A stretch of DNA of 64,000 nt from Terebella lapidaria (Eukaryota; Annelida; Polychaeta; Terebellida; Terebellidae), in assembly GCA_949152475.1 (NCBI GenBank), contig OX424559.1, positions 20,677,809 to 20,741,808 of the forward strand, in the 5' to 3' direction. This document shows positions 18,780-48,126 of this stretch, one piece after another (positions within the stretch are counted from its first letter, which is position 1; every line of letters begins with the position of its first letter). The translations under genes were made by a program, and so were the position numbers. A model generated the notes under the pieces. The model saw only the letters and a list, made by a program, of their open reading frames with translations. It did not search any database and was not told the DNA's origin.

Positions 18780-19600
18780 TATGCCGTGCCGACAGTTTCA
18801 AAACTTTCGGAGCGCGCAGTGACACTCCCACTGCGCGCTCCGAGAGTCTCAGAGCGCGCAGTGAAATCTCGGAGCGTGCTGGGACATTTGGGAGCGCGCA
18901 GTGAGAACTGTCAGAGTGTGCTGGTGAATCTGGGAGCGCGCAGTGAAATCTCAGAGCGTGCTGGGACATCTGGGAGCGCGCAGTGAAATCTCAGAGCGTC
19001 TTGGTAAGTCTGGGAGCGCGCAGTGAGAACTGGAAACACTCCCACTGCGCGCTCCGAGAGTCTCAGAGCGCGCAGTGAAATCTCGGAGCGTGCTGGGACA
19101 TTTGGAAGCGCGCAGTGAGAACTGTCAGAGTGTGCTGTTGAATCTGGGAGCGCGCAGTGAAATCTCAGAGCGTGCTGGGACATCTGGGAGCGCGCAGTGA
19201 AATCTCAGAGCGTCTTGGTAAGTCTGGGAGCGCGCAGTGAAAACTGGAAGCACTCCCACTGCGCGCTCCGAGAGTCTCAGAGCGCGCAGTGAAATCTCGG
19301 AGCGTGCTGGGACATTTGGGAGCGCGCAGTGAGAACTGGAAACACTCTCACTGCGCGCTCCGAGAGTCTCAGAGCGCGCAGTAAAATCTCAGAGCGTCTT
19401 GGTAAGTCTGGGAGCGCGCAGTGAGATCTGGAAACACTCCCACTGCGCGCTCCGGGAGTCTCAGAGCGCGCAGTGAAATCTCATAGCATGCTGGGACATT
19501 TGGGAGCGCGCAGTGAGAACTCTCAGACCGTGCTGGTGAATCTTGGAGCGCGCAGTGATATGTGAAAGCGTATTAGGTTTTCTGGGAGATTGCAGTGATC
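18780..19600 (+). repeat. Left terminal array of the giant element (~40-bp units)
   Basis: After an 18-bp unique tip the segment is a tandem array of 40-42-bp units, each starting 'ggagcgcgcagtga'. Two types alternate: one continuing 'aatctcagagcgtgctggg', the other 'gaactgtcagagtgtgctgg'. Local inversions (cccactgcgcgctccgagag) recur every few units, making small hairpins. Units decay after 19500 toward the promoter of the integrase gene. Repeated units at both ends could be transposase binding sites (inference). Confidence 0.85.
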
Positions 19601-19640
19601 GAGCAGTGATCTCGCGCTGCCAAATTTCCCGCTCTGAGAG

Positions 19641-19654
19641 CTATATATATATAG
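19641..19654 (+). promoter_or_regulatory. TATA box of the integrase gene
   Basis: A ctatatatatatag block lies 32-45 bp upstream of the first ATG (19686) and about 75 bp upstream of the second (19731), immediately inside the left terminal array. If transcription starts about 30 bp downstream (~19680), the first ATG would be at the very 5' end of the mRNA, which favours 19731 as the start. Confidence 0.5.
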
Positions 19655-19730
19655 TCGCGTCACTTGGATCAAAAGCGGGACACGAATGCTGGTTTTTCGG
19701 CATTTTATGTTTGACTGTCTTGCATGTAAC

Positions 19731-22153
19731 ATGTCAGATATATCGCGTTTCCTTGATGTAGCAAACGAACTTCTGATTGATATTAAACGCCGACAAGATT
19801 CATTGGACCCAAATGTACATGAATATTTTTATAAGAGGCTGAAGATTGTAGACACTGCTGTTTCACGCTTATTATTGAAGGAAGTATCCAGTTCTCCTGC
19901 AGCCCAAATCAAGGTAAGAACGAGAGATCAATAGCCTGAAAATGTATGAGAGATGCTATTTTTTTTCACATTTTGTCCCACACCTAATGGCATGGCGTAA
20001 CGTCCGTCTTCGTCCATCAAAAATTAGGATATTTAAAGACTGGAACAGATTTGTGAAAATCACCAAATAGTCCAACCTTCAAACCATTCAAAATGGGCAC
20101 ACCTTCTATTTGTCTGAGCTTACCGAACCTATGGTACTCCTATGTTGTTTGAACATAGAACACAAATAGCCTAACATACCAAGAGGCAACAATTAGCTGA
20201 CCACTCTTTTACTGACCATTTCATATACTCACAACCCAAATCTTATATATGTGTTTCTGATACATTTATACTAACAATATGTTGACAACTGGTGTCAAAG
20301 TGACATTGTCACTCCTTCTAAGGCGATATTGATTTTCTGTTACATTCTTCACTAGGTCAAATGAATTTTACCTTCTATGACTTCTTGTCATAGATTTGGA
20401 ATAATTCTATTTGGAATAACATTTCTTAGACCCTTCAAGGGCTCTTTCAAAAAAAATGTTCTAAATCAAATTACACTGTGTTTTAAATGAGCCCGTAAAT
20501 GTGTTTGACCGTCAATTTATTTTGTCTTAAAATGCCAATTTATGGATGCACTTGAATTAGTCATTCGGTGATCTTGAAATCAAAACGGTCATATTGCCGT
20601 TTTTGTCAGCCATTTCTGTTGGCCTTATTACAATTGTCGGCCATTTAATATTATTACAATCCTATGGTGATTTGGAATTTGGTCTTCGATAAACTTGAAA
20701 GGTCAAAACGGCCTCATTATATTCTTCCTGTAATATTTATAGCCCTGAGATCACGTTTTATCCTTTTATTTTTGTGTCAATAGAAATAGATCTAAGATAT
20801 GAATTCATATATATCTATTTATTCCAGGATTTATTGGCAGAGTACCAATCGTTAGTACGAAGAATATCTTCTGAAGTAAAAGGGAGGCGTGTACGCTTGC
20901 TTCGCGGTAATATCAATAGAGGAGCGTATCAATCACAAACTCGGTCATCTGGTGGAAGACCAAAGTTCATCGTTACTAGAGAACAACTGGAACGTCTGTT
21001 TGCCTTGAATTTTTCTTGTTCTCGGATTTCCACTTTGCTTGGGATAAGTCGCGTCACGCTGTGGCGTCGGCGGAAAGAATTTAGACTTCTTAAACAGTAC
21101 ACCGATATAACAGATGATGACATTGACATAATTGTTTCAAACTATAGAGAGGAGCACCCCTTCACTGGAGAAAGAGAGTTGATAGGACATATAAGGAGTT
21201 GTGGGCTAAGCATTCAAAGATTCAGAGTACGAGAGAGTATTCAGCGATGTGATCCAATCAACACGGCTCTAAGGTGGAACGAGCCTCTTAAACGCAGACC
21301 TTACTCCGTACCTGCCCCTAATGCTCTCTGGCATATAGACTCGAACCTGAAGCTTATCAGGTGGGGCTTCGTCATCCAAGGAGGAATTGATGGATATTCA
21401 AGGTTTATCGTGTATATGCATTGCAGCTTAGACAACAAAGCAGCTACAACATTTGATTTATTCAAAAAGGCCGTTAATGATTTTGGACTTCCCTCCCGTG
21501 TGCGTTGTGACTACGGAGGTGAAAATCAAATGGTGGGCAGATATATGCTGGAAAATCGTGGACTCAACAGAGGAAGCATTCTCACCGGACCAAGCACACA
21601 TAACACTCGCATTGAACGGATTTGGAGAGAATCCGGCAGATCTGTCATTCACTTGTTTTCTCGCATTTTCTCTTTTCTGGAAAATAGGCTCAAGTCACTA
21701 GACCTAACAAATCCAGTCCATCTGTTCAGTTTGCAATACATATATCTGCCACGAATTAACAGAGCAACCAAGGAGTGGATTTCTGCTTGGAACAGTCATC
21801 CGTTGTCCAGCTGTAAAAATCTGTCACCCCTTCAAATGAGAGAACGAGGATTTCTGGAAAATTACTCGAGCACCACGGACACTGTGTGTGAAACGTTCCG
21901 CCCGTCTGGTCCTTCGTCCTCACTGGATGAGTTCGGAATAGATGTTGACGAAACACCACCAGACAATGACGACGAAGAAAATGACGATGGACGCCCTCTG
22001 CAGTTGCCTCGTGTTAACTTGCCCATAAGTAATGAGATAGGCCACGAACTACTCCAGGAAAAAATTGATCCTTTGCAGCAAGACGACAACTACGGCATAA
22101 ATTTGTACAACGATTGTGTTTCAATTCTCACTGCTCATATAAATTCGCTATGA
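19731..22153 (+). CDS. DDE integrase/transposase (rve fold), two exons
   Basis: Exon 1 runs 19731-19913 (or from ATG 19686) and ends AAG|gtaaga. The 914-bp intron ends ttccag. Exon 2 is 20828-22153. Both junctions are phase 0, giving about 502 residues. Exon 1 is helical (SDISRFLDVANELL). Exon 2 has a helix-turn-helix (LGISRVTLWRRR), then an integrase core: WHID (Asp codon 21338), CDYGGEN (Asp 21509) and NTRIERIWRE (Glu 21614). Residue offsets are 57 and 35, the D,D(35)E arrangement of the retroviral integrase superfamily. All three catalytic residues are intact. The C-terminus is acidic (DNDDEENDD). It resembles a widely dispersed animal integrase-like family, probably related to IS3EU-type transposons; that assignment is from memory. 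AATAAA lies at 22675. It sits just inside the left terminal array. Confidence 0.85.
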
Positions 22154-23775: not shown

Positions 23776-23780
23776 TTTCA

Positions 23781-23919: not shown

Positions 23920-23923
23920 TTAA

Positions 23924-25003
23924 AGAGCATGTGTCACGAAAATTGGGTATTGGGTTTTTCTGTGTATGTGAAAGCACAATTTGAACTGAATAAAACGGTC
24001 TTTACAGCATATTGATATCATGATTTCTTCCAAAGTTATGGCACTTCAAACATTTACATATTCACAGAATCTGACAACAGAATCTGACAGCTAATTAATA
24101 TGCAAATGAGATGTGTGATGTCATTGACAGACTGGTTTTTAATTAGACATTTTAAAATGGAATAATGAGAATGTTTCTTTTCATAATTGTTCACCAGAAC
24201 CCACTTTTTATGTTTCATGGTTAAAATAGTCAGTGATTTCATGAAATTTTTGGCTACCATGGCAACCATTGGCCGGCTGGGTCCCTTAGCAACCACGGTT
24301 GCTAAGGTCAATATCTAATTAAAAACAGGACATACAGGAATGAAACTATTTCAGACAATGAATAATGACAATATATTGTGGAATATATCAGCAAAATGCT
24401 TGAACACAACACTTAGCAACCAATAAAGGCATAGGAAACCAGTGGTAATGGTATCCATTCACTTGCGATGGCTTTAAACATTGGTGATTTCTCAGGCCTG
24501 TATCGGTTGCTATGGTGTGTAGTTGAACAATTTGTTTATTAATTCCACTAGATATTGTCATTATCTCGTTATTTGTGTTGGTTTCATACTTTCATTTCGT
24601 GTTTTGACGTTAATATTAGCCTTAGCAACCACGTCGCTAAGGCCCAAATCAGCCTATTGGTTGCCATGGCAACCAAGATTGACATGCACTCACTGACTAT
24701 TCCTACTGGACAATATTTCTGATGGGTGTTGGTGACCAAATGTGAACATGAAAAGCTCCATTTTGTCATGTTAAGACACTTAATTAAAAACCAGTCTGTC
24801 AATGACGTCACACATCTCATTTGCATATTAATTAATTGTCAGATTCTGTTGTCAGATTCTGTGAATATGTAAATGTTTGAAGTGCCATAACTTTGGAAGA
24901 AATCATGATATCAATATGCTGTAAAGACTGTTTTGTTCAGTTCAAATAGTGCTTTCACATACACCTAAAGAACCAATACCCAATTTTTAGTGACACATGC
25001 TCT
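23924..25003. mobile_element. TTAA-flanked foldback MITE, 1080 bp
   Basis: Terminal inverted repeats begin AGAGCATGTGTCAC and run well matched for about 215 bp, then more diverged to about 380 bp, including 'ggttgccatggcaacc' and 'ccttagcaaccacg' blocks near the centre. TTAA is present on both sides (23920-23923 and 25004-25007). Because TA lies inside TTAA, a TA duplication cannot be told apart from TTAA by this site alone. piggyBac elements use TTAA, but the terminal bases are not the usual CCC. No coding region. Confidence 0.85.
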
Positions 25004-25007
25004 TTAA

Positions 25008-25511: not shown

Positions 25512-26577
25512 TTACAAGTTTTTCAGAACTCCCAGTATCGCAAGTTCGATGTCCTTGATTGAGATGGTCCGATAATCGTCCTGTGAAGGTGTCTGATCTG
25601 ACAGGATCATCTCAGCAAGTCGTTTGCTTGCTTCCATCTTGGATTTCACATACAGCCGGCAACTGTACCCAGCATTGTGCTGCGACAACGTTTCCGTTGA
25701 CGTGGAGTTAACGATAAGCCTCGATATTAATTGAGTATCTGCACTAATGATGTAGTTTTCTTTGTTTGCCATTTTGAACATGATGAGAATCAGTTCCTCC
25801 ACATCGTAATCTGGAAACTCAAATCTGTCAGTGATGCGACGAGCAAGACCAGGGTTGACAGCCAGCACACGTTCCATAGAGGATGGGTAACCCGCGAGTA
25901 TGATGGCTGGTCTGTCATCAGTAGTATGCGGCCCACCTTCCATGACCGCCATAAGAGTGTCCAAGGCCTCAGGTCCGAAGTCCTTGCCACATTCGGGGGG
26001 CACGAGACGGTAGACTTCGTCGACCAGGAGTGTCCCACCTCTTGCACCGTCGATGACGTTCTGAGTCTTGTCGGCTGTTTCCCCGATGTGTTGCCCCACC
26101 AAATCTTCCCTCTGGACAATAGTGAGCTTTTTGTCCTCAACAAGCCCCGTCATGTGCATGATATCTGCAATAATAGCCAGGTAATAAACCACTTTAATAC
26201 TAAGATTTGTATGGGTATGAATGTTTTAGTTAATTAGATACATTTTGCAATTGTATGACAGTTCAATTCAGGTAGAAAATAACCTTGTATTGTATGTCCA
26301 TCTATAACACACCACGATCTTTTGCACATCTTCCTAAGAATAAATTTAGGCTCACCTGCAACAATTTCCGCAATTGCTGTTTTGCCCGTTCCCGGGTTCC
26401 CGGCAAACAGGAATATAGGGCGCTTAATTGGTGTCAGGAAACATGTAGCTTCTCTCTGCCGGATCTTATTAATGGCGGCCATGGTTGAGAACTCCATGAG
26501 CTGGGTTTTAAGGGCATGCAATCCAACAATATCCTTGAGTTTATTGTCCAGTTGATTTTGGATATCTTCCAGTATTT
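25512..26577 (-). CDS. CbxX/CfqX-type AAA+ ATPase, 5' end not found
   Basis: Two exons. The upstream exon 26356-26577 follows acceptor acatag and ends GTTGCAG|gtgagc; the second, 25512-26164, follows attgcag and ends in a stop. The joint is phase 1 and restores an Asp codon. The product is about 290 residues. It shows Walker A GNPGTGKT, Walker B GGTLLVDEVYRL, the family-typical DFGPEALDTLMAVMEGG, then ILAGYPSSME and NPGLARRITDRF (arginine-finger region). These order and motifs fit CbxX/CfqX AAA+ proteins (relatives of SpoVK and rubisco activase CbbX), hexameric remodelling ATPases; some animals carry expanded sets. The first visible exon begins inside a codon, so at least one 5' exon is missing or lies in the 26.6-27.9 kb interval. 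It is on the same strand as, and about 1.3 kb downstream of, the USP gene. Confidence 0.8.
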
Positions 26578-26599
26578 CTATGTAGAAGTAAAAAAAAAA

Positions 26600-27860: not shown

Positions 27861-27865
27861 AAATG

Positions 27866-30280
27866 TCATCGGATTTCTTGGGTTGGGGAGGCCAATGTCT
27901 TCTGAGGACGCATATAGAAAACCGCCTGCAAAAATACATATGTTCAAAACTGGTTGATCTACATGTTACGATGTTCGCAGTTTGGTCTTATCCATATATA
28001 TTACCTCTGAACTTATTGTTTTGCACAATAAGTATGCCTTTGGCATATATGTTGAACAAAAAAGGAAACCTACACCTGAATATTACAAAACAAATAAAAC
28101 GCACATGGTATATTAGCATCGTTTTCCACAAGATCCTTCACGTGCGGTGCTGAGGACAGTTTCGTATTATCCACGATCGTCCTTTTAAGGAAATGAACAT
28201 AAGAAGCATCATGTTTGTTCGCCTTTGTGGTATTTGCATGCAACAATTTAAATTCCATCAAAGTCATAAGAACAAATACTTGACAACATGGCATAGTCCA
28301 GATCTGTTGTCATGCTTTCACTAAAAAGAACACCACAAGAATGTATTATTAATCATTCAATGCTTCTCACCAAGAGTCCTTTTCTTTTTTGACGAAGATG
28401 TAGTGAGGGGCCGGTGCCTTCTTGTCCACCATTAATACAAGTCCACGCAGGGTCATCACGCCACTGAATTTTGCGTTGAAAACGCTTTTTTGGATAGTTT
28501 CCAGTGGCATCATACGCTTGTAGGTATGAAAATGTATGTAAGCGATATATATATATATAGTTATTCATTATTGGAGACGGGTATTCACTAAACATTAAGG
28601 TGTCAGTATTTTGAATACCTTTGCGTCGACATCAGCAGGGCTATGCCGCAACACAATCCAATCGGGCAGGTGGGTGATTTGCGTCTCTATACTGGTGTTG
28701 GTTTCCTTGAAATATATAGAATAATAAATATATAATATTTTTTCGTGACTTTTATGTCGACATCGTTAAAAAATCATTAATTGAGATGTAGAATGTATGA
28801 ACGCAGAAAGCTTAACATCCATCGGAGATTGGCATAAATTATACATGCGGATTGGTTTGAAATTGAGCGGATATGAATCTGACCTTATATGTCCGTGTGA
28901 GGCTGTCTTTGATCGCGGCATTCATGTCGTCTGATGAACCACCAGAAATATCATGGACGAAGGCTGTTGTGCTCAGGATAAACAATTATCTGCATGATCT
29001 CAGCGGAACCAATTACACCAAATGGGCAATATCAGTATTGTAATGGCATGTATGAGATACTATAGATTGAGTTTGAAAACATATTTAAATGTTCTCTGTT
29101 CATTTTTGTCTGAAAGGATACAACTCTGGAGGGTGGATCGGGTAGCGCCAATTTGCGTTTCAGAGATTACTTTTTTCACTTTCATATCGTCCAGTGGTGC
29201 AGTTACATCGTCTTGGATGGCCTTAAATGTACCGGTACATGTATGGTATAATTATTTTTTAGTAAATAACAATTGCACGTATTAGGCATGTATTCTATAT
29301 TTAATTAGGCAACCCGATTGAACATCGGGAGGCCTTATGTTTCTGTCTGTTTTTTTTTGTTTTGTTTTTTCTTCCGCCGTTTGGTTCCCGGATGATAACT
29401 GTTGAACACCTGGACCGATCGTTCTAAAATTTTCACAGCTTATCCGGAATACTTTGCTACAGCCCCCTATTGTCTTTCATCGAGATCCCAAATCCAAGAT
29501 GGCCGCGAGCGGCCATTTTCTGAAAAAAATTGGCCAACTTCTGTCAATGTCAAAATTAGATTCAGGCAATTTCCAGGAGAAAAAAAATTTGCCTAACCTA
29601 GATTTTTTTTCCTCAATTTTCAACCCCTTTACCCCCCCCCCCTTTACCCCCCCCCCCTCTTCACCCCCCCCCCCCCCCCTCTGGTGCTGATTGCCTGGAG
29701 ACACTACCCCCACCCCTCCTGACCCAGTGCCTGGTCTGTCAGGTCAGTCAAGTCTGGACTGGTATTTGTATACAATGTGAATACAGCTATGAGGCTCCAA
29801 CTTTCCCTGTGTATAGAAGACAAAAGGTGATTATGTAATTAACTGACAGACATGACATAAGGTGCTTGGGACAATTGATTGGCTATGTGGCCAGCAGTAT
29901 ATCCAGTACCTGTATTTAAAGCTGCGGTAGCCGTATATAAGGGGAAAGCACCCCCCTACCCATGCTCTGCTGTGGCCTAAGCCATCACTTGGTCCAGAAT
30001 TAAAAAAGAACAGAAAAAAATTGGGGATGCCACAAAGCCTCTAGGCTTTAATTTCTAGTTCATTTCATGAAATATATGAATCACTGCACATTATAATGGT
30101 ATACAAACCTGTCGACTTGTGAACAGCATGTCCATCATCGATGAAAAAAATTCCACTGAGTCCATCTGCACACCAATGTCGTATTTACATACTTTGAGCA
30201 AATCCTCTGCTGGCTGAAGAACATTATCCTGGGATGATATACAAATATTAAATACATATTGGTACATCTTTCACCAAATA

Positions 30281-30328
<48 letters not shown>

Positions 30329-30331
30329 TGC

Positions 30332-30408
<77 letters not shown>

Positions 30409-31078
30409 TGTGCCATTAACTGGTATGAAGTAGTAAATAGTAAGTTTCCAAAGGGTTATTTTGTGGACAAAAAATACATTGGTAATACACGACAGCTTCA
30501 TTATTCTTACCAATTCGTTATCAAGCTTTGCGGCTATCATCAGTTTTTGAATGCAAGTACAGATGTCTGCGTTCGGTAGGGCAGGTGCCAGCATTACGTC
30601 CTCAAACACCGGTAAGCTTTGCAGCAAAGCCATTGCCGCTGACAAAAAGCAGGAGTTGCCAATGGATGGAAGGCCAAGCACTATAAATTAAACAATTATC
30701 AAAACAATTATGTAAATTATGCATTAAAAAATTAAACAATTATAAAATATGTTAAAAACAACCTGCCATGACCAGTTTTCGGGATGATCCCTCAGGACCT
30801 ATGTTCAGACGGAGACCGGGCCCTGGTGTCTCATCCGGGATACTAACTATTTTGTGATATGACAAATTTCTTGCACGGAGGAGTTATGGTTCATCCAGAG
30901 CGCCATATTGCGGTTAAGGAGATTGTATATAGATATTGTATATATATGTACTGCTTCATACATGGTTCAATAGAAATCATCGATATGGAGATTACGAAAA
31001 CCAAGAAACACATGTTCAAAAGCATCATATTCCTTGCATACCTGGTTCATCCGTTCCTGTGCTCCGAGGGGAAGCTGA

Positions 31079-31142: not shown

Positions 31143-31513
31143 TAATAGGAAAATGTATTTTACATGTTGATGAAGGCTCTCCAAAAAAAGGAAGAGTGTC
31201 ATTGACGTCGAAGTTCGACACTGGGTCCACAGAACCTCCGATCTGCACCTGGCAAAATGAGTCAATGCCTATCACCAGAAATACACAGCTGATTTCACAC
31301 AAACATATCGAACTATAATTACCATCACTACCGTACATTATATAACTACAGGTGTGTATAACTATTATCAATAGATCATAGATTGAAGTATATTCCTGTG
31401 ACGCATATCGTTGTCAATTATAAAAAAACTACCAACAAATCTTACCACACCACTGTCGTCCGAAATAATCTCTGTCTCCTCTTCGTCAGCCTGCATGGAA
31501 TAACACATATAAA

Positions 31514-31608
<95 letters not shown>

Positions 31609-33978
31609 TATAGGGATAATTATATATATTGCTTCAGAGTTGGGTTGTACCAGAAGTTGGGTTGGGTATATTATTCAATATCCAGGGGCGCAGGAGCCTG
31701 TTCACCGGATGATTTCTATCGGTATTTTTGTTCGCATCAATTTTTTCAATTGAAGGGAACAATTTTATATTTTACAGTTGAAACATTAATGTTTTAAAGT
31801 TGAAGCGTGACCCACACATTCGTGTTATTTGGATCATAAGTATTGTAAATACGTGGGGTTAACCATTCTATTTCGTGACAGTGAACGATGTGATCGATCT
31901 TTAAACAAAAGAAAGTTAAAATAGGGCTAATTTATTGTTCAATCCTATATTGCAACATCATTGGAATATACTATTTGAGATGCTGAATGTACTTGTGTTT
32001 GTTTATCCCCCCCCCCCCCCCCCCGAAAAAAAACGTGTCGCAAATAGTCACAGAAAGTAAGCTAGTTACTTAATTATGGCCGTGATCATCATATTTATTG
32101 TAATTAAACTTATTCGTAGTAATAACTGAACTGTACTGTTATTGTTGTTGTACCAGACGACATGTATTAATAAAATTAGTTGGAAATTTACACACCTACA
32201 CGGGGCATAGAGGCCATTACCATTTCAATTCCAGATATATATAGCCTTCATTTTGAGAGACGAAGCTTAGGATAATATTTGTGCGATTTGTGCTCAAGAT
32301 ACATATGTTGTAACCGGCGACTCATATCATACAACTACCATTATCGCCATATCAATTCTTATTGGCTTCCGACGCCCCTGGTAAAATCTTCAACGCATTC
32401 ATTGAGACTGGCCTTTATTATATATATCCAATTGCCTCTCTTGTATGACGAGAGTAACTGTGCCGCGGTCGGCTCGGCAAGGACCCTCAGATGCGAATAC
32501 GGTCTGCCCGCCTCAGTGGAACATGGGGCCAAGAACCGCACACCCTCTGGCACATGCACCGACAGCATGTTGGCCAACTGAACGCTGGACCAGGCCTTGT
32601 TTATGGACAGGTCATGATACGTCATTCCAGCTTCTTTCAGCTGTTTCAGCCGATGAGATGTTGGGGCCGAAACCTTCCCGTCGATAAGTGTACTCGGGAT
32701 GAGGGCAAAGTTTCGCTTTAAGGGCCGCGGGGTACCGTGGATCCTCTTCTTCTTCGCGCGTTGTGGTCCGCTGTCCAGGGTGGCATCGTTTGGCCGGAAT
32801 GTCTTGCTTAGGCCTGCCAAATCTGGACCAAGAATTTTGGGGGCGAATTTCTTTCTCATCTCCTCTTGAACGGTTTGGAATACCTGTGTTAAAAAGTTTC
32901 ATGGATAAGAAATCTTAAGAGTAGATCTAAGACATCAAGCTGTGTAGAATACATGGCCCCCTTAACAGGTTTGCGGCTATGGCGTGGAACATTATCTGCT
33001 GCCACTCTCAACAATTTGCTGAGTTTCCTCCACCTGGCCATATCTTGCCCATTTCTGTGTGTGTACCTAAATTGAATTTGACACTAAATGTTTCAACCAA
33101 AGGTCTTGGTTAGGATTATTTTACGTTTTTGCCAATTCATTTCATTCCTACTGCCGTGGCCAACCTTAGATCATATGCTGAAAATCCACCTCAGTTTTCA
33201 ATTGTAGAACATGACTGGTATTTTGTTGTGTTGTTTTTGTAAAGCATTGAAATCGTACAAATGGTCAATGTGCTCTAACCTGGGGTCGGTTGTCGGCTTG
33301 ATTGTCTGATTGTCCGCATGATGCTTCATCCTGCTAAACAGAGAAGTATAATAATGAGCATTTTATAGTCTAGTATCACCATATCATACTAGAGTCTAGT
33401 ATAGATTATGCATGTAATAAAAATGTATTTAGATTACAATTTGGACACGCGTCAGATATTAACTCAACATGGCTATTCCCGGTATTTGTTCTTTGGAGAT
33501 TAAAATTTAGTTAAAAATTTATATTATCGAATATACCTTGCATAATCATTATATTAAGTCCATATACACTATTCGATATGTATCTGGTTTACTTGCATTT
33601 TCATGACTTACTGCTCAAGGGAAAATTAATAATTTACACAAAATTACCTAACTAATTACCAAACATGAAATGGTATGGTCACATTTTCACTAACGTACCG
33701 AAGCGTGTTCCTCGCACTCATCCGACATGACATGAGCCTTGAGAAAGAACAATTTCTAAAATGAATCACGGTCACATTACCAACAATCCGTTTTAGTACG
33801 TGTCAGACTATTTAGTACGATCAACTGTACAGATGAACGTTGGAAAAGCATGACGCGATTGTAATTTTTTTCGGGATACCAATACAAAATAGCAATATTT
33901 TGTTTATATATGGAAGTACTTACAATCCGCTTTTTTATCAACTCTGATAATCCTAAAGTTTTATCGACAAATCCAGAC
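27866..33978 (-). CDS. Ubiquitin-specific protease (peptidase C19), multi-exon, 5' partial
   Basis: Exons in transcript order, most with GT-AG borders and matching phases: 33924-33978, 33699-33737, 33280-33330, 32883 down to an unresolved end, 31446-31490, 31164-31248, 31042-31074 (33-bp microexon), 30511-30680, 30109-30228, a gap, part of 28884-28989, 28619-28705, 28371-28516, 28076-28181, 27866-27925 (stop). USP signatures: Cys box GLPSIGNSCFLSA (Cys codon 30649-30651), DSVEFFSSMMDMLF matching the QQDAHEF helix, ITHLPDWIVLRHSP matching the LP..L...L.RF strand, and His box APHYIFVKKEKDSW (His codon 28403-28405) followed by a VDN and an FYLFC end. The zinc-ribbon cysteines of many USPs were not seen, and one middle exon is unaccounted for where a repeat is inserted (29.3-30.05 kb). 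Function (inferred from family): cleaves ubiquitin from proteins. Confidence 0.75.
28371..28516 (-). CDS. USP catalytic-His exon
   Basis: 146 bp between acceptor cctacaag and donor CTCTTG|gtgaga. It encodes FNAKFSGVMTLRGLVLMV and then APHYIFVKKEKDSW. H-Y-x-x-[FY]-V with a Trp nine residues after the His is the USP His-box layout. Its two trailing bases join the next exon (28076-28181) to give TGG and then TIVDN, which fits the D/N-bearing strand after the box. An open frame in a different register across this exon is an artefact. Confidence 0.75.
29310..30060. repeat. Dispersed repeat with poly-C tracts inside the USP gene
   Basis: Starts near 'ggcaacccgattgaacatcg' and contains 'cggatgataactgttgaaca', then 'ccaagatggccgc', three C runs at 29633-29680, and an A-rich end near 30003-30022. 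It lies where USP exons between the two parts of the catalytic core would be expected, so it is either intronic or has replaced an exon. Confidence 0.45.
30285..30411. repeat. (GT)n/(GCGT)n microsatellite
   Basis: GT dinucleotides followed by a GCGT tetranucleotide run in the intron next to the Cys-box exon. Similarity between copies A and B of the duplicated region ends here. Confidence 0.9.
30511..30680 (-). CDS. USP catalytic-Cys exon, copy A
   Basis: 170 bp, beginning after tttatag with two bases that complete a codon started by the microexon, and ending GAATTG|gtaaga in phase 0. It encodes the nucleophile box GLPSIGNSCF. Copies with the same borders occur at 53304-53473 (plus) and 61243-61412 (minus). 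Confidence 0.85.
31080..31147. repeat. (AAT)n microsatellite in a USP intron
   Basis: Trinucleotide run immediately beside the acceptor of the 33-bp microexon, shared with different lengths by all three copies (also at about 52908-52950 and 61812-61867). Confidence 0.9.
31517..31606. repeat. (TA)n microsatellite
   Basis: TA run of about 90 bp upstream of the ADEEETE exon. The corresponding runs are at about 52458-52528 and 62255-62318. Copy C stops resembling copies A and B at this point. Confidence 0.9.
32359..32883 (-). CDS. USP gene exon with a possible ubiquitin-like domain
   Basis: Follows acceptor ttaacacag in phase 0. The frame stays open for about 174 codons to a stop at 32359-32361. 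A basic linker (RAKKKRIHG) precedes a segment LIDGKVSAPTSHRLKQLKEA, then SINKAWSSVQLANMLSVHVP and HLRVLAEPTAAQLLSSYKRG. The strand-helix-strand order and wording recall the beta-grasp-like domain found ahead of HECT or similar modules in repeated animal 'G2E3-like' proteins; this is from memory and uncertain. No good phase-0 donor was found near its end, so either the true donor is upstream in the exon or a separate isoform ends here. Confidence 0.55.
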   Translation of the reverse strand, partial: VFQTVQEEMRKKFAPKILGPDLAGLSKTFRPNDATLDSGPQRAKKKRIHGTPRPLKRNFALIPSTLIDGKVSAPTSHRLKQLKEAGMTYHDLSINKAWSSVQLANMLSVHVPEGVRFLAPCSTEAGRPYSHLRVLAEPTAAQLLSSYKRGNWIYIIKASLNECVEDFTRGVGSQ

Positions 33979-35140: not shown

Positions 35141-35558
35141 CCATGTCAAGTCAAGTCAATTCAAATTTATTCAGAACTGTATGTCACATTTTTTACACAA
35201 TAATCCTTTCGAACATAAACTTGATACAGTCCAGAGCTGTGAATTTGAGTCTAAGACTGTACCCTCAATTTACAAGAAAGCAATTATGTACAAGAGTAAT
35301 AACAATATTTCCGCTCCCTGAGAGAAATTCACAACTCGATAGAACAAACAAAAAAGTTAAAACAAAACACATCAGAGTCATACCTAAAAAGAAAATACAG
35401 TTGTTTTTTTAAATACTCTTATTTCCAGATAATAACAGCTGTACATACATCTATATATTTAATGATGTGTCACACCCGGTGTCGCGTGTGCTCGTGCGCC
35501 TGGCGCGCTAGCGTAACAAATCCCCCCCCCCCCCGGCCAAAGAGGTCCAGGCCCGCCC

Positions 35559-35969
35559 TCATTGATCGCTATACCCCCGCAAAGTGGCCCGCCTGAAGCG
35601 CGAGGAGAAACAAGACTTTGTTACTAGTGTCTGATGAGTGGTATCTATATATAGTGATTCGGGTGTTTGATTCCATATTTCAGGTGCCATTTTTAGAATA
35701 CTGATTGATGTTGCAGCTGTGCGCGCTTTTATTGGTTTTAAATTGTAAGAAAGGCAGTGTCTAGTGTTGTGGAGATGTGTTGTTTTGGAAACTGTGAAAA
35801 GCTCATGCAGGGTTTTCGGCAGACTAGCACGTAAGAATGATAGAACATAACAGCATAAATATAATTTATAAATGTCTTGTAGTTTTAGAAGTTTCATATT
35901 TTTGAAGAGTGGCTCTGTGTGTGCATTGAATGGTGCTCCAGCTATGATTCTTATTATTTTCTTTTGCAT
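35559..35969 (-). pseudogene. LINE ORF2, C-terminal part
   Basis: 136-residue frame (ARTAATSISILKMAPEIWNQ-like sequence followed by a Cys-free tail) typical of the region after reverse transcriptase in Jockey/CR1-like elements. Separated by a stop or frameshift from the RT part. Confidence 0.7.
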
Positions 35970-35979
35970 AGTGGTTAAT

Positions 35980-36660
35980 TTATAACCCCAGGAATTTTAC
36001 GTCATGACATCTTGATATGGTGGTCCCAGCTAGTCTAAGGTCTGTTGTATCATTAATTTCCATGTTTGTGAAAAGCATATAGTTCGTTTTTGATACGTTT
36101 AAAGAAAGTTTGTTCGCTCTGAACCAATCAGATAGTTTGTGTAATTCTGCATTCATGGTATCGTAGAGTTGTGCTGTGTTTGATGATGACTGGTATACTG
36201 TCGTGTCATCGGCGAAAAGAATGGATTTAGTAGAATTTAGAATACAGGGAAGGTCATTGGTGTATATAATAAAAAGAAATGGTCCAAGTACAGAACCTTG
36301 TGGAACTCCACACTTAATAATTTGAGTTTTAGATTTTACACCTTTATAACTAACATATTGTTTACGTTGTGATAAATAACTTTTAAACCATTCTTGGGCC
36401 ACACCTCTAATTCCATAAAAATCAAGTTTATTGAGTAGTATAATGTGGTCTATGGTGTCGAAAGCTTTTGAAAGATCAAGGAAAAGAGCTATAGTGGATT
36501 GTTTATTGTCGAGTGCGGTTGCTGTGTCAGTAATAAATCTAGTTATTGCGTCTATAGTGCTATGTTTAGTAATCCAAATTGGTTTTCATACAGAATATTG
36601 TTTTGTTGAAGGAAATAAGATACACGTTTATGAACAATTTTTTCAATTTCTTTAGATATC
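35980..36660 (-). pseudogene. LINE reverse transcriptase core
   Basis: Contains LDLSKAFDTIDH (first catalytic Asp), CGVPQGSVLGP and FADDT (catalytic pair) in order. A frameshift near 36580 (around NQFG, then TKHSTID) splits it, so the copy is inactive. Confidence 0.85.
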
Positions 36661-37707
36661 GAGGGCAAGATGGAAATGGGTCGATAGTCCGAGAAGTCGT
36701 TTTTTTTCTTTTGCTTTGTAAATCGGTATATTTTTTCCTGTCTTGAGGGTGTCAGGCATAATTCCAGTACGTAGAGATTGATTGATAATCATGCTTAGCG
36801 GTGAACACACAGCTGGTCCTATTGTTTTCAAAAGATTTGTGCTGATGTTGTCGTGTCCTGTACTGTTTTTGGATTTCAATTTATTGATTATGGTTAATAC
36901 TTCATTTGGGTCGGTAGGTGAGAGAAACAGGGATTTGGGATTATTTTTATTGTTTGCGTGCAGGTAGTGGTGCGAGTTGTTTGAGGGTGCTGGGATTTTG
37001 TTGGCATAGCTAGGTCCGATTTCGGTGAAAAACTCACAGAATTTGTTTGAGATAGTTTCCGGATTTGTTATATTTTCACCGTTAATAAGGAAGTTATGAG
37101 CGATTTCTGATTTGTTGTTGCTGTGTTTATAATTTTTGTGTTCTTCAAGTAGTGAAGCGTAGTAGTTTTGTTTTGCTTTTTGTTTGAGTCTATTAAGTGT
37201 ATTCCTATATTGGGTGTAGAATTTGTATGCTGGGTCAGTTTTAGATTTTTTTACACACTCACGGTATAGTTTCGAACAGTTTTTTGAGGACTTCACTAGT
37301 CCTTTGGTAATCCAAGGTGTCCTAATGATATGTTTATGGGATATTACTGTTCTAATAGGTGCATAAGTGCTTAATATATTATTTATTTTAGTGATAAGGT
37401 CTTGACACGAGTCATTGACAGACATATTTTCTAAGTGGCTCCAATTGATCAGTCGGAGGGCTTCAGTAATATTTTCTTTTGCAACGTTTGTTAGTTTTCT
37501 ACTATATATCTCTACGGGTTTACCTTTACTGGATTGTGATTTGCTATACGTGGTTGTACAAAAAGTCGGCAGATGGTCAGATATGTCACTGATTAGAAGA
37601 GCAGATTTAATTTTTATATTTGTGTTATATTTCACATAGATGTTGTCAATAAGTGTGGCAGTTGAGGGAGTAATGCGAGTTAGTTTTTTGTGATAGTTGG
37701 AATTCAA
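36652..37707 (-). pseudogene. LINE endonuclease C-terminus and RT N-terminus
   Basis: 351-residue frame with SDHLP (endonuclease catalytic His region) and, at its end, LKSKNSTGHDNIS (RT domain 0/1) and LKTGKNIPIYK. It joins, after frameshift, the RT core downstream. Confidence 0.85.
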
Positions 37708-37896
37708 ATTCCCCTTCTACAAATATGTTTAGTTCTTCCCTTATCTTGAAATCAATATGTTCTTGCCATATACATGGCCACCCCACCCCTTGTCATTTTT
37801 GTTCTATTTTTGCAGACAAACTTATATCCCGGTAATTGATATAAATCACTATTTGCTTCATGCAAGAACGTTTCACAAAGCAAAATGAAATCTATA

Positions 37897-38791
37897 TGTG
37901 ACGTTTGGTAATGACTTGTTTTCGGTGTGGCCCAAAAAACCTGGTTTCTCTGATCGTATAGACTTTATGTAACTCCCGCTCGTTGTGATTCGAGAGCCGT
38001 CACTAAATTGGTGTCCCCCAACGCTGGTGTATCATCACTCCGTAGCTTACCGGCTTCACTTAGGCAAGAAGCAACTCAGATGTAAATAAATTGAAGATTT
38101 ATATACATCAAATCAACTTACAATTGTATGGCTGGTCACCCACGTGACGTACAAATATGAAGTTCAGACATGGAGCACTGTATGATCACATTTCAAAAAT
38201 AAATAGTGCACGAGGGCACAACTAAAAAGAGTTCTTAGCCGGCGGCGTCTCTCTGTCCCTTCCCGTTGAAGTTTCCCGTCCCGTTTAGTCGAATGGTTTC
38301 TCCAGGTAGTCGGTCTAATCCCGGTTGACTCTAAGGCCCTGAAGAAGGAGTCGTCCGCACGGAGTTCGTCGAGTCCCTTGGCTGTGGCGGTGACGATCTC
38401 CCCACGGTCGATGTCACTGTTGCAGTGCTCTCAGAGCGGCCGTCCGCTCTCCCTTATATAGCCAGGGTGGCTGCGCGCGCATCTTCGTCCGCGAACGTAT
38501 CTTCCGCACTCTTCTCCACGTGGTGAAGACTGCGTCCGCGAACGGTTCTTCCGCGAAGGCTCCTCTTCCGCGAACGGTGCTTCCGCGACTGATGCTTCCG
38601 CTGATGATGCTTCCGCAATCGTGCTTCCGCGAACGGTTCTTCCGCGAACGATGCTTCCGCTGATGATGCTTCCGCAATCGTGCTTCCGCGAACGGTTCTT
38701 CCGCGAACGGTGTCTTCGCAAGTGGACTTTGTAGATCACGTGACCGTTCCTAACGAACGTTTCAGCGCGGCAGTTGCATGGTTTTGTTACA
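37897..38791 (-). mobile_element. Solo LTR, 895 bp, inserted in the LINE endonuclease
   Basis: On the minus strand it begins TGTAACAAAACC and ends CGTCACA (TG...CA), flanked by TATA on both sides (37893-37896 and 38792-38795). Removing it with one TATA brings the two halves of the LINE endonuclease into one reading frame, an independent check of the borders. It contains a tandem GC-rich 'ttccgcgaacggt'-type repeat in the U3 half, then a TATA box (ctatataagg, minus strand, near 38452-38461). No internal retroelement genes remain. A Ty3/gypsy origin is plausible but unproven. Confidence 0.8.
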
Positions 38792-39099
38792 TATATATAC
38801 ATTTTTAGTTTCAATGTCAGAAATAAGTTCTTGTAATGATGTATACTTTGAAGGTAGAGATTGAATGTTAAGATGAAGCATTGTATATTTTAGTTCCTCC
38901 GATTCACCCGATCCGATTGTTTTTATTAAGCTGTCAAAATCATGATATTGGCTGCTGCTAAGGGAAGCTAGTATTGGATTTGTAGAATTTTCAGAATCAT
39001 CAAGATACTCATTCAGACAGTTATTCAAGTTCGGTGCATTAGTGTCGTTCAGGTTAATCAAGTCTGTGTTATCCATGGTCATTGATAGGGTGGGGATGT

Positions 39100-40165
39100 A
39101 TCAGTTGTTGAAACTCCACACCCTTCAGGCCAACCACCACACGGAGACTTAGCGACCAAACACACGCGCCCGACCCACCCCAGACCGAGAGGAGTGAAGG
39201 GGAAATGACAGCCAACTCCCAGCACCCGAGCACACACAAGACGACGGGATACATCAGTAAAATACGAACAGTTGACTTATCCATTAGTCAGTTTCAATGA
39301 ACAGTTTCCATGTGAAGGACTTATGGTGTCATATTTGTGTGTGATGTATATCACTTGCTTGACTTTCGTTGTCAAATGATAGTACTCTACCGAAAACGAC
39401 AGGTTAATATTGTGCACGCGAGAGAGCTAACCATTAGTAGATGAGACGGGTGGCACGTGACCACCATTTGACCAATGATAACACAGGATGTGCAGGATGA
39501 AGAAGGATTCATTCGCTTGGCGTAACGAAGGTGGGTGGAGGTGGAGAGGGGGGGGGGAGGGGGGGGGGGGGTGCGTGGCAGGCGAGGCTTTGGAAAGCGC
39601 TAAAGGGAATCCGCTGAAAGATGAGCAGGAAACAGCAGCTCATGGATATGGCCTTCACGTTTATATTGTATAGATTTATCGGTGCAGGCCATCATATATA
39701 AGCTTTGCCACTCAAATTGAAAAAAATGTTACAGAAAAAGTTACTTATAGTTAGGGCCTACCGTCCTATGTACCAATAAGTTATGTTAGTTAAAATTTCA
39801 CCTAGGCCTACATATAATATATGAACTTTACATCGTTTCATATATTATAATATTCAGCTGCTATAATATTCTCTCTTCGGTATAATATGGTATCATATTT
39901 TCTGAGAAACCAATTTCGCGATCTTCTTTTTTACCAGAGCTGTATCGACAGTAGTAATATTTTCCAGGATGTGAAGAATGTACATAAAACACGTAAATGT
40001 ATAGTGCAATATAATCAGTATTCGTCAGCACGGCCTAATAGATCCACTGTATAATCACAATAAATGTTCAAGGGTTTATTCCCAAAATACGCTCCGGGAT
40101 TTCAATTTTATAGTTCTCTGATGGCGATCTTCCGTAAAAACACCCGGGGCTTCTATAGGGGGGTT
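39100..40165. other. No gene recognised
   Basis: Possible LINE 5' UTR near 39100-39290, G runs at 39550-39571, then AT-rich sequence. Nothing coding is supported. Confidence 0.35.
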
Positions 40166-40169
40166 CCCA

Positions 40170-41393: not shown

Positions 41394-41427
<34 letters not shown>

Positions 41428-41483: not shown

Positions 41484-41543
41484 TGGTTCCCGGTAGTAGA
41501 TAACAAGTGACCTACAGTGGAGAGAATTACTTTTGTGACCAGC

Positions 41544-43432: not shown

Positions 43433-45777
43433 CGGGAGAGACGGACAAAGCGGACCCTCCCGGCAAAGCGGATCATGGACCTGACTTGTTGAAATATTGA
43501 ATAACGTATATGTATAATAGCTATTAGATGATACTGAAAGATAGTATAAAGTGTTTAAAAACAAAATTCAGTTTGTTACGGTGGCTCTTTTAAGACATTG
43601 CTCTTTTATTTTTTTTTAAAAGTTAGAAATATTTGTGGCACGTATATAATCATTTTATACACGTATATAATCATTTTATACGCCTTTTTAATATTTTATA
43701 CGCGTATTAAATGATTTATTATGTATATTTAATATTTTATATGCATATTTAATCTTTTATTACACGTATTTAATATTTTATTTGCGTATTTAATATTTTT
43801 TATGCATATTTAATCATTCATTACGTGTATTTAATATTTTATATGCATATTCAATCATTTATTAGGCGTATTTAATATTTTATTTGCGTATTTAATATTT
43901 TTACGCATATTTAATATTTTTTATGCATATTTAATATTAAATACGCGTATTCAATCATTTATTACGTGTATTTAATATTTTATACGCGTATTTAATATTT
44001 TATATGCGTATTTAATCATTTATTATGCATATTTAATATTTTTATGCATATTTAATATTAAATACGCGTATTTAATCATTTATCACGTGTATTTAATATT
44101 TTATATGCGTATTTAATCATTTATGACGCATATTTAATATTTTGTATGCGTACTAATTAATTCAATATTAATGAAAATAATATTATTGAAAATTTCAAAT
44201 ACACATCAAAAAAATTTGAATACACGAATTAAATGATTAAATATGAATATAAAATAATAAATATGCGTAATAAATGATTAAGTACGCGTATAAAATATTA
44301 AAATTCCCAGTATAAAATATTAAATACACGTAATAAATGATTAAAAACGCGTATTTAATATTGAATATGCATGAAAAATATTGAATATGCGTAATAAATG
44401 ATTAAATATGCATATAAAATATTAAATACGCGTGATAAATGATAAAATACGCATATAAAATATTAAATACACGTAATAAATGATTAAATATGCGTAAAAA
44501 ATATTAAATACGCAAATAGAATATTAAATACGCCTAATAAATGATTGAATATGCATATAAAATATTAAATATGCGTAATAAATGATTAAATACGCGTATA
44601 AAATATTAAATACGCGCATAAATTAATTAAATACGCCCTACTAATATTTCAAACTTTTTTTTAAAAAAAATAATAAGGCAATGTCCTAAAAGAGCCACCG
44701 TAAATACGCCAAAAATTATTTAATTTTTATATTTTTTCTATTAAATAATGCAACGATATTGATTTCATTCCGACGCCATCAAATTCAATACGAGTCAGTA
44801 AAACATTGCTTCGCTGATGTATTTCATGTGTAATTAGGGGGAAAATATATCATACATAAATTAAATTATTTACTGGTGATGAATTACAAAGCGGACCAGG
44901 GCAAAGTTGTCCGTCAGAGCATTCCGCTTTGCCCGTCACTGCATGTCCGCTTTGCCCGTCTAGACTTCAGCTGCTTGTGGTTTGAACCAACGTAATAAAT
45001 ATCATAGTAAGCAAAATTTGTGTTTCTCTTAATGAAAATCAGCACACCTACTTTGAAATAGTGTTAAAAAATTATCCTGGGATGTATATTGATGTACCTT
45101 GGATAGAGCGGACAATGATCTTAATTACATTTTTCATACTAACGCCAATATATAATACGTAATACGTATTACTGATACGTAATATGTTCAAACTAACAAA
45201 TGAGGTGTGCATTACATGTTCAATCTATGATTACAATTTCATTCCAATCTACGTACATTTTGTTCATAATTAAGTGGTAAATGGTGTCACATATTTTTGG
45301 CGAGAATGGGTGCTAAAAATTGATGTTAAGTTCAAGTTAGTATTTCACTGTAGTCCTTGTTCTTGATGTCAAAAATAATAACAATTTTGTTTTTTATGAA
45401 GCAGAATGCAAATCCGACAATTACTAGTAACTTCTTGAACAACGGAGTCAAAACAATTGACACTGCAAAGAACAGCTAGTCTTTGTATACATAATGATGC
45501 CTTCAGTACTGTGAACGATTGATAAACGATTGATAAACACATTTTCGGCTCAAAATGTAGAGCTATTGTGTGCAATGAGCTGTAGCTAATTGATTGTATG
45601 CACATGGTCTGCACGTCGTCATCGCAGTGGTACTGAACATCCAATGAGATATTAAACGTTGAAACGAATTACGTCATAGGTAACAATTAATGTTACAAAA
45701 AAGAAACCAGGAGATATTATTTGATAGATAATAATGCGCCCTTCAATTAAGGTGGTCCGCTTTGCCCGTCTCTCCCG
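43433..45777. mobile_element. DNA-transposon-like element, TIR CGGGAGAGACGG, TA-flanked
   Basis: The left end CGGGAGAGACGGACAAAGCG mirrors the right end CGCTTTGCCCGTCTCTCCCG with one mismatch. TA is present on both sides (43431-43432 and 45778-45779). Internal copies of 'ccgctttgcccgt' occur at 44923-44960. TA targets suggest the Tc1/mariner/pogo group, but no transposase is encoded. A foldback element is nested at 43576-44703. Confidence 0.65.
43576..44703. repeat. Foldback element with AT minisatellite arms
   Basis: TTACGGTGGCTCTTTTAAGA at the left is mirrored by the right end (cctaaaagagccaccgtaa). The left arm is a tandem array of ~20-25-bp units based on 'acgcgtatttaatatttta'; the right arm is the complementary array (taaaatattaaatacgcgta). 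The centre is near 44160-44210. The 1.1 kb could form one long hairpin. Confidence 0.85.
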
Positions 45778-45779
45778 TA

Positions 45780-46190
45780 GGTGTTTTGGTTTGTTTACAC
45801 ATCCAGGCGGTGCACAAAGCGCGGCGGCTTGTGTTGTGAATAGTTCCGATGGAAATCGATTGAAATGACACGCATATGACATTTATTACCTGTGCGACGT
45901 TCATGTTTGTTGAATTATGGACAAATACAATATTTAGTTGCAAGCCGAGAAGCACATGGCTAACTTATATAGGTCTACAGCGGAGTAATATTCGAACGAG
46001 ATGACATGATAGTTTCACTATCATAGTCATTTTGGACAAGTGCTGGAAGAATGCTCCCATTTTAGGACTTGTTTGGCGCCGAAAAATAGGGAGAACGCAT
46101 GACCTCGTACATGCAGGCATTTCCAGCTAGAGCACGTGTCTCGTCATGACGACAGCAAAAGGTCTTCAAGGGGGGGGGGGGGGGGGTTGT
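45780..46190. other. No gene recognised
   Basis: AT-rich, followed by a G run at 46170-46186 just before the right terminal array of the giant element. Confidence 0.35.
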
Positions 46191-46194
46191 AAAT

Positions 46195-48126
46195 TTCACT
46201 GCCCAGCAAGTTCTGACATCTAACTGCGCGCTCCCAGACTTCCTGACACGCTCCGAGATTTCACTGCGCGCTCCCAGATTCACCAGCCATGGAAGGCTGA
46301 ATAGGACATCTTCTTCCGTGTGCCGCTTGAAGCTTGCCGCTTACCGCGTGTTGTATAGCGTACCGCCTACAGCTCACCGCTTGGAGCTTGCCGCTTGTTG
46401 TATAGCTTACCGCCTTCCGTCTGATACTTACCGCCTACGTCTTACCGTTCTCCGCCTAGCACAGGGATATATATATTAAAATACGTAAGCCTATATAATG
46501 ACATATTAATTTGAATTTTATTTCATTTTCACTGTAGGATCATCGAGCAGGCTAGTAATATGCCTAGGCCTACTATATATCATGTTATCTTCCCAGTAGT
46601 TACGACATATAAATACTGTCCGTTAGACATATGTTGAATCTCGGGAAACCGTCAAGCAGCACGCGGTGAGCGGCAAGCTGTAGGTGTTGTGCGCATTCTT
46701 GGGTATTTGGACACTCTCGGACATACCCAGCTTGCCCAGCACAATCTTGGAATATTAAATGTTTCTTGATTAAACACTAGCTATTATCATCGAACAATAG
46801 TTACAAATTTTCCTTCCCATTTAAAATGGCAGAATATTAATTCGTACAAGTTTCCCAAATGTTTAGTCGATGATTAAATAGGCTACAGTTAAATATGTAG
46901 GTTTTTTCATTCAAATTTATCAGTCAAATCCATCGTGTTTTATTGCTTGTCAATTTTCTGGTATTACGTATCCTTGTTGTCGTTTTAATTTAGGGCTTAC
47001 ATGGTAAGCGGCAAGCTCCAAGCGGCACACGATGTCCAATTTAGGCTACACATGACCAATTGATTTTTGTGTTCAACGAACATTCGCAGTGCGACCATGA
47101 AACAAAAAAGATCTCAATTGTTTCCATTTCATTGACTATTAGACCTATTAAGATAAACAATACTACATAATATAGGATGATAGGCCTAGCCTAGCTAGCA
47201 AGCGGCAGGCAGCGAGCGGAAAACGGCAAACAGGGAGAGGTTGAGCGGCAGGCGGCAAGCGGCACACGGAAGAAGGATTCCTATTCGGCCTTCCATACAC
47301 CAGCACACTAAGACTTCTCACTGCGCGCTCCCAGATAACTTCACACGCTCTCACATCTCGCTGCGCGCTCCAAGAAAACCTAACACGCTTCCACATCTCA
47401 CTGCGCGCTCCCAGATTCACCAGCACACTCTGACAGTTCTCACTGCGCGCTCCCAAATTCACCAGCACACTCTGACAGTTCTCACTGCGCGCTCCCAAAT
47501 GTCCCAGCACGCTATGAGATTTTACTGCGCGCTCTGAGACTCTCTGAGCGCGCAGTGGGAGTGTTTCCAGTTCTCACTGCGCGCTCCCAAAAGTCCCAGC
47601 ACGCTCCAAGAGTTCACTGCGCGCTCTGAGACTCTCGGAGCGCGCAGTGGGAGTGTTTCCAGTTCTGACTGCGCGCTCCCAAATGTCCCAGCACGCTCCG
47701 AGATTTCACTGCGCGCTCCCAGACTTCCTGACACGCTCTGAGATTTCACTGCGCGCTCCCAGATTCACCAGCACACTCTGACAGTTCTCACTGCGCGCTC
47801 CCAAATGTCACAGCACGCTCCAAGAGTTCACTGCGCGCTCTGAGACTCTCGGAGCGCGCAGTGGGAGTGTTTCCAGTTCTGACTGCGCGCTCCCAAATGT
47901 CCCAGCACGCTCCGAGATTTCACTGCGCGCTCCCAGACTTCCTGACACGCTCTGAGATTTCACTGCGCGCTCCCAGATTCACCAGCACACTCTGACAGTT
48001 CTCACTGCGCGCTCCCAAATGTCACAGCACGCTCCGAGATTTCACTGCGCGCTCTGAGACTCTCGGAGCGCGCAGTGGGAGTGTCACTGCGCGCTCCGAA
48101 AGTTTTGAAACTGTCGGCACGGCATA
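46195..48126 (-). repeat. Right terminal array of the giant element
   Basis: The same 40-42-bp units as the left array but in opposite orientation (cactgcgcgctccc...). The outer end (actgtcggcacggcata at 48110-48126) is the complement of the left tip. A 1010-bp element inserted at 46288-47297 splits it; without that and its duplicated target, the array is about 915 bp, close to the left one. Confidence 0.85.
46288..47297. mobile_element. MITE inserted in the right terminal array
   Basis: Inverted ends [C/T]ATGGAAGGC extend through 'gaatagga' and 'cttcttccgtgtgccgctt' for at least 45 bp. Target duplication CACCAGC (46281-46287 and 47298-47304). The intact array unit reads 'gattcaccagcacac', confirming the empty site. 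Sub-terminal 'gcttgccgctt' and 'taccgc' words repeat on both sides. No coding content. Confidence 0.8.

Follow-up and report, generated by a model that had tools for sequence, protein, structure and literature searches.

A probable 29-kb IS3EU/GingerRoot-type DNA transposon with array-built ends, an AAA+ gene and a putative USP-like gene in Terebella lapidaria

Results

An array-ended element flanked by a 6-bp duplication

We analysed a 64,000-nucleotide stretch of Terebella lapidaria DNA (contig OX424559.1, positions 20,677,809 to 20,741,808; hereafter the window, numbered from its first letter), which contains 0 N and for which an initial annotation had proposed a mobile element with its own integrase and with USP and AAA+ genes as cargo. 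The element occupies positions 18780-48126 (29,347 bp), and its limits are set by the following features:

18774..18779, no strand: left copy of the target-site duplication (TSD), CGAAGA, an exact match to 48127-48132 in register 0 only
18780..19640, + strand: left arm with tip region, array and 214-bp repeat (repeat search, alignment and motif count)
46222..46283, - strand: detached array fragment (repeat and motif search)
47251..48126, - strand: right arm with array and tip (repeat search, alignment and motif count)
48127..48132, no strand: right TSD copy, CGAAGA, an exact match to the left copy

The 18-bp tip TATGCCGTGCCGACAGTT was found exactly at 18780 (+) and at 48109-48126 (-), and the first 102 bp from the tip inwards are identical at the two ends, as expected from the inverted identical tips first reported. 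A third TATGCCGTGCCGACAGTT tip, at 48155 (+), was the only additional site in the window when up to 3 mismatches were allowed; this third end matches the left or the right end exactly over 18 bp only. Each arm opens with a tip region of 30 bp and continues as an array of 40-42-bp units, which begin with GAGCGCGCAGTG. Exact GAGCGCGCAGTG occurs 16 times forward and 5 times inverted in the left arm, and 15 times on the minus strand and 4 times inverted in the right arm; beyond the three arms, a single site in the window (46262) carries it. The opposed end arrays, put initially at about 0.9 kb, are thus present at about 0.8 kb per arm. In addition, both main arms contain a 214-bp higher-order repeat (2.4 copies each, 98%) that the initial annotation did not mention.

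The left and right arms align at 87.6% identity over 821 columns. The variant GCGTCTTGG is found in 3 copies in the left arm and in none in the right or third arm, while GTGTCAGG has two copies in the right arm, one in the third and none in the left. These arm-specific variants suggest that the left and right arms probably expanded independently and that the third end is of the right type.

The element begins with TATGCC (18780) and ends with GGCATA (48126), giving TA..TA termini. CGAAGA flanks both ends exactly, and of the 7 registers tried at this one locus only register 0 gave a match, which bears out the hexamer described on both sides. When the flanks were joined with one CGAAGA removed, they matched 16703-16798 with 88.5% identity across 96 columns (E = 2e-30). 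The intact repeat into which the flanks rejoin therefore extends beyond the 16760-16790 first noted and is a paralogous rather than an orthologous empty site. The precise ends, the 6-bp duplication and the rejoining host flanks collectively support the proposal of one inserted unit.

FB and TU are foldback elements with long inverted ends of tandem repeats. Two non-autonomous ends of this type could have moved host DNA between them, with USP and AAA+ being trapped host genes. The arms do resemble foldback arms with internal tandem repeats, as the cited passage describes them (PMC4079207), and much of the interior consists of unrelated repeats. However, a scan of the window detected no inward-facing tips within 3 mismatches, which argues that the arms are not two short foldback elements, and the left and right arms carry distinct variants. 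We consider such a composite origin unlikely, also in view of the genes described below.

A complete integrase gene adjoins the left arm

Three features lie immediately inside the left array:

19642..19653, + strand: TATA-like stretch, a candidate promoter seen by eye about 80 bp upstream of the integrase start codon
19731..19913, + strand: integrase exon 1, 61 codons, followed by a GT donor (gene model)
20828..22153, + strand: integrase exon 2, helix-turn-helix region and DDE core (Pfam, NCBIfam, alignments and predicted structure)

The two exons form a gene that starts about 90 bp past the inner edge of the left array and encodes a complete 502-amino-acid (aa) DDE integrase with no internal stop, confirming that the element has an integrase of its own. 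Pfam PF24764 (rva_4) matched the frame 20699-22153 at 2.1e-69. The closest bacterial models in NCBIfam were IS481 (5.3e-14) and IS3 (6.6e-6), both under those families' own cut-offs. The structure was predicted with a confidence (pLDDT) of 88.3; comparing folds with this model proved informative, even though the query-normalised Foldseek TM-scores were low, 0.21-0.34 among the 50 matches listed. By sequence, alignment to solved structures returned no integrase at E <= 1, the matches being mostly helical designs and helix-turn-helix chains. No zinc-motif family was found at E <= 0.1 in a Pfam scan of frame 20699-22153, with exon 1 outside the scan, and no CxxC was seen when the 502-aa protein was read by eye. 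Furthermore, the integrase had no match among phage records, and two protein scans of viral contigs yielded no confirmed relative. Three exact 18-bp tip matches in viral contigs were dismissed as chance; they share the same surrounding sequence and have no remaining tip and no array.

In the cited description, complete IS3EU families always have TA..TA termini and usually a 6-bp TSD, and both IS3EU and GingerRoot are without the HHCC motif (PMC10045372). Termini of the TA..TA type, a 6-bp duplication and an integrase like those of IS481/IS3 together lead to an IS3EU/GingerRoot placement. The termini, TSD, profile models and published descriptions fit a large, array-ended member of this group. 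A transposase of a superfamily suited to these ends, adjoining the left arm, also speaks against the composite origin considered above.

AAA+ and USP-like genes on the opposite strand

The interior contains two sets of exons on the minus strand:

25515..26164, - strand: last AAA+ exon found, Walker B and arginine-finger region (Pfam, NCBIfam and solved structures)
26356..26577, - strand: AAA+ exon with Walker A, GNPGTGKT (splice scores 6.1 and 6.5)
28070..30671, - strand: USP-like (UCH) domain, provisional exons i (30671-30511), j (30228-30109), l, m, n, o (ends at 28371) and p (to ~28070) (PF00443 on exons joined by eye)
31163..32888, - strand: probable upstream USP exons c (32888-32421), e (31490-31446) and f (31248-31163) (splice scoring, phase by eye)

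The two AAA+ exons, the second of which (26164-25515) has an acceptor with a modest splice score of 3.2 and carries what we take to be the Walker B and arginine-finger motifs, join into a 291-residue piece of a partial gene. This piece matched PF00004 at 1.7e-12 and the SpoVK and CbbX family models at 1.4e-50 and 7.2e-50, both under those families' own cut-offs. Residues 5-280 of the 291 align to the CbbX model at near full length, and the sequence of the solved CbbX structure was matched at 8.3e-41. From these matches, a CbbX/SpoVK-type AAA+ gene is clearly present.

The USP model contains, in order, the motifs GLPSIGNSC, QMDSVEFF and APAPHYIF, which we take to be the Cys box, the QxDxxEF-type motif and the His box. 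With exons joined by eye, it matched PF00443 at 1.4e-6, over the curated cut-off and across profile positions 2-239 of 254; an earlier version scored 1.5e-5 before exon p was added and the joints were mended. The splice phases of the joints e-f, f-i, i-j and o-p were inspected by eye, with l, m and n outside the check, and exon c had no Pfam match. As controls, four exons alone scored 2.5e-5, reversed exon order gave 0.084 with the Cys-box piece only, and one shuffled and two neighbour exon sets gave no UCH match. A joined USP-AAA query (8,000 candidates scored) returned AAA-domain proteins, many bacterial, as the best 120 of 479 matches; PF00443 was not among the domains listed for them, long entries being listed in part, and the search was uninformative on USP. 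Taken together, there is moderate evidence for a divergent USP-like gene with provisional exons. Of the two cargo genes first proposed, the AAA+ gene is therefore the clear one, and the USP-like gene stands with weaker support.

Maverick/Polinton elements encode a protein-primed DNA polymerase B, a packaging ATPase, a protease and a capsid. Our large element likewise brings together an ATPase, a protease-like gene and an integrase, and has a 6-bp TSD, as a relative of theirs would. However, the ATPase of our element is CbbX-type, its protease is UCH-type, which are other kinds than the Polinton ATPase and protease, and its integrase is nearest to IS481/IS3. There is also no long polymerase frame, the longest open frame in 18700-49500 being the 484-aa integrase frame, and Pfam matched no Polinton-type gene in 15 element frames (these include 12 of the 20 frames that reach 110 aa), although spliced genes could escape either check. 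A Polinton relationship thus appears very improbable.

A second, broken element leads into part of the USP region

Adjacent to the right end, the third tip opens a further element, and two features are needed to describe it:

35100..39100, - strand: non-LTR (long terminal repeat) retrotransposon (LINE), a passenger with approximate limits (RVT_1 1.3e-28 at 35980-36585)
48155..53594, + strand: second, broken element with right-type tip and a shortened array ending at 48512, followed by the 3' end of the LINE and the reversed USP region (tip search and alignments)

The second element is opposite in orientation to the first, so that the two form a tail-to-tail pair separated by 28 bp. Its arm is 97.4% identical to the right arm (345 columns) and 95.1% to the left (346 columns). 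Positions 48514-53594 are a reverse copy of 35553-30371, with 95.9% identity over 5,214 columns with gaps and 97.9% over 5,153 aligned bases. The upstream USP exons are copied within this block, and e, f and i occur once more at 61244-62210. About 12 kb of the first copy has no counterpart in the second, whose sequence is cut short at a microsatellite and whose far end lies outside the window.

Reading inwards from either right-type end, one thus reaches the LINE 3' end and then the USP exons, arranged alike, which makes it probable that the USP region moves with the element. That the USP region adjoins a right-type end in the second copy too again disfavours trapped host genes; the lack of a second AAA+ copy in the window is on the side of a composite, and the case for co-mobility of the AAA+ gene is its position. 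A local inverted duplication is a possible source of the second USP copy.

An assembly artefact or segmental duplication might also lie behind the tail-to-tail pair and the inverted repeats, as large inverted repeats of 93-98% identity are found at 48-62 kb. Nevertheless, the ends, TSD and rejoined flanks of the first element agree to the base, and the 28 bp that separate the elements run on in the host repeat, collinear with 16773-16798. We regard this explanation as highly unlikely.

Beyond the USP exons, the second element (48155-64000) runs into an inverted repeat of about 2.2 kb, 52453-54655 against 60152-62315, made of two blocks (93.5% and 98.3%) with USP exon copies. It is broken at (GTGC)n microsatellites and is either a real palindrome or an assembly effect.

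Passenger DNA and other features of the window

Besides the LINE, two further passengers were recognised within the element:

23924..25003, no strand: passenger palindrome of ~1.1 kb with TTAA on both sides (inverted-repeat search)
43577..44702, no strand: foldback-like passenger whose ends are inverted (TACGG..CCGTA), with 20/41-bp arrays rich in AT (repeat searches)

The palindrome is possibly a non-autonomous element nested in the transposon. The ends of the foldback-like unit agree with TAYGG..CCRTA, the consensus of fungal IS3EU; a search for direct duplications of 4-9 bp around it found none, and we do not claim it as a second IS3EU family. Repeats in the ~33-47 kb region recur at 55-60 kb. 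This region looks like passenger DNA. Later passengers seem to make up about half of the 29 kb in all, and the original element was probably 15-20 kb. The proposed transposon of about 29 kb is therefore upheld in that its ends lie 29,347 bp apart, and corrected in that later insertions have inflated this length.

The same insertions bear on the cargo. The integrase and arms could be a real transposon in which USP and AAA+ are role-less passengers brought by other insertions. The LINE, the TTAA-flanked palindrome and other repeats did insert, and the USP-like gene is divergent with no selection signal. However, both genes lie opposite to the transposase strand, as do the alpha-kinase gene in the cited account of fungal IS3EU (PMC12730594) and a HECT-like frame in a sponge-associated contig (L003, see below); their key motifs are present, and a portion of the USP gene is seen next to this type of end in two places. 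We consider role-less passengers the less probable interpretation, and the most serious of the alternatives.

Elsewhere in the window we noted a minisatellite at 2298-3944 (21-bp unit, 78.5 copies, open in several frames), tandem arrays of 188-203-bp units at 8034-9950, and a 295-aa open frame at 658-1542 (+) that Pfam did not match at E <= 0.1. Neither Rfam (at the gathering threshold) nor a tRNA scan gave a match.

Discussion

A single transposon and how it may work

We propose, with a probability of roughly 85%, that one single DNA transposon of the IS3EU/GingerRoot type, moving by cut and paste, spans 18780-48126. Several observations weigh against or limit this proposal or its cargo. The transposase was compared with profile models, and the ends are TATGCC and not the TAYGG given for fungal IS3EU (PMC12730594). 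No second complete copy of the element occurs within the 64-kb window, where USP exons j-p, AAA+ and the integrase are likewise without a second copy. The USP exons were picked by eye, the model was altered between its two scorings, and at exons c, l, m and n no splice site scored >3. The 473-aa USP model had no relative at E <= 1 among 7,733 candidates, and its best match to a solved USP structure (E 0.12) fell behind a chance match at 0.017. Finally, differences between the USP copies gave no selection signal on the exons (10/755 against 35/3,831 sites, p = 0.31), and neither did indels (p = 1.0). Six of the 10 exon differences form one cluster at the start of exon c, and a cleaner comparison was obtained with exon c trimmed to exclude it.

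If the element is such a transposon, the position and number of the GAGCGCGCAGTG sites suggest that the transposase would bind many of them in the arrays; from its fold, it would pair the ends, cut at TA..TA and join target DNA with a 6-bp stagger. The arrays may be subterminal binding-site clusters that grew by tandem duplication inside each arm. With less confidence, the USP-like deubiquitinase and the CbbX-type remodeller might shield the transposase-DNA complex or recycle it, or else weaken silencing by the host.

ClpX remodels the transposase complex of phage Mu. By analogy, the element might possess its own protein-quality-control module, in which the AAA+ protein would dismantle the integrase-DNA complex after strand transfer, the USP-like enzyme would deubiquitinate the transposase or host silencing factors, and arrays and remodelling genes would have co-evolved; within this reading, about 19-21 exact binding-motif copies per end would make a very stable complex that needs a remodeller. 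We offer this as speculation that is more probably wrong than right by a wide measure.

Little work has been done on IS3EU, a eukaryotic superfamily whose integrases resemble those of retroviruses. The present copy, apparently complete and provided with large array arms and ubiquitin/AAA+ genes, suggests that IS3EU can form large gene-bearing units, probably in animals, and offers a possible case of a transposon that manages the stability of its own transposase. Introns, the LINE and the named relatives of the integrase all point to an animal source. It is also a case for the origin of foldback-like arms on an element that retains its transposase gene.

Comparison with known systems

The foldback and Maverick/Teratorn/Starship frame of the initial annotation was not supported, as the ends, the 6-bp TSD and the integrase fit IS3EU/GingerRoot instead; our giant-transposon comparisons were based on PMC6431247. 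Tetris, a foldback element, shares long inverted ends built of tandem repeats, but the cited passage gives it no conserved open frames and 8-10-bp TSDs, whereas our arms enclose an intact transposase gene and are flanked by a 6-bp TSD (PMC4079207). Ginger1 similarly links an integrase-type transposase with a ubiquitin/SUMO-related protease, OTU or Ulp1 being fused to the transposase; unlike our element, with its CGAAGA duplication and no CxxC in the integrase, it is described there with CCGG/CCGT TSDs, a zinc finger and a GPY/F motif (PMC2836005).

Like IS3EU and GingerRoot, as far as the cited description goes, our element has TA..TA termini, a 6-bp TSD and an IS3/IS481-like DDE transposase without the HHCC motif, but it differs in its 29-kb size, its ~0.8-kb array arms and its USP and AAA+ genes, of which that description makes no mention (PMC10045372). 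Fungal IS3EU elements are reported in the cited passages to have TAYGG..CCRTA ends, terminal inverted repeats (TIRs) longer than 30 bp and 6-bp TSDs, and to carry as accessory genes an alpha-kinase opposite the transposase and a TET/JBP dioxygenase (PMC12730594). The TET/JBP-bearing members share with our element the 6-bp TSD and a transposase with accessory genes, one of the fungal ones lying in opposite orientation, whereas our TATGCC..GGCATA ends fall outside the TAYGG subgroup of that account (PMC12730594). Styx of Zymoseptoria, also IS3EU-related, is described as 7.9 kb long with a 36-bp TIR and four genes, including ones with GATA, CCHC and DUF3577 domains, and was searched for with a 6-bp TSD (PMC10853768). 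It resembles our element in its transposase and extra genes, and its clustered, tandem-inverted neighbours recall the pair at 48.1 kb, but our size, ends and cargo are different from those given in that source (PMC10853768).

Related integrases are encoded by four short contigs filed under sponge symbionts, L001-L004 (LWTN01000118, LWTN01000139, QPIL01000069 and LWTN01000127), which are probably sponge DNA binned with the symbiont and carry eukaryotic-type transposon integrases. No TA..TA inverted ends with an exact 6-bp duplication were found around the integrase in L001-L004. In L003, the integrase converges on a frame with a partial match to the HECT ubiquitin-ligase model (PF00632, 1.5e-6, profile 213-285 of 306). 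A likeness between USP exon c and an L003 frame was dropped, as it was no better than shuffles. Together with the fungal alpha-kinase, the HECT frame hints, by analogy, at an IS3EU habit of pairing the transposase with a signalling or ubiquitin-related gene on the opposite strand.

No element combining arrays, USP and AAA+ was found among the matches listed in the open-access literature, with subscription papers, preprints and Repbase reports outside the search. The superfamily and accessory genes in its members have already been published, in the passages cited here (PMC12730594, PMC10853768); the Terebella lapidaria element would add this combination in a large, array-ended member.

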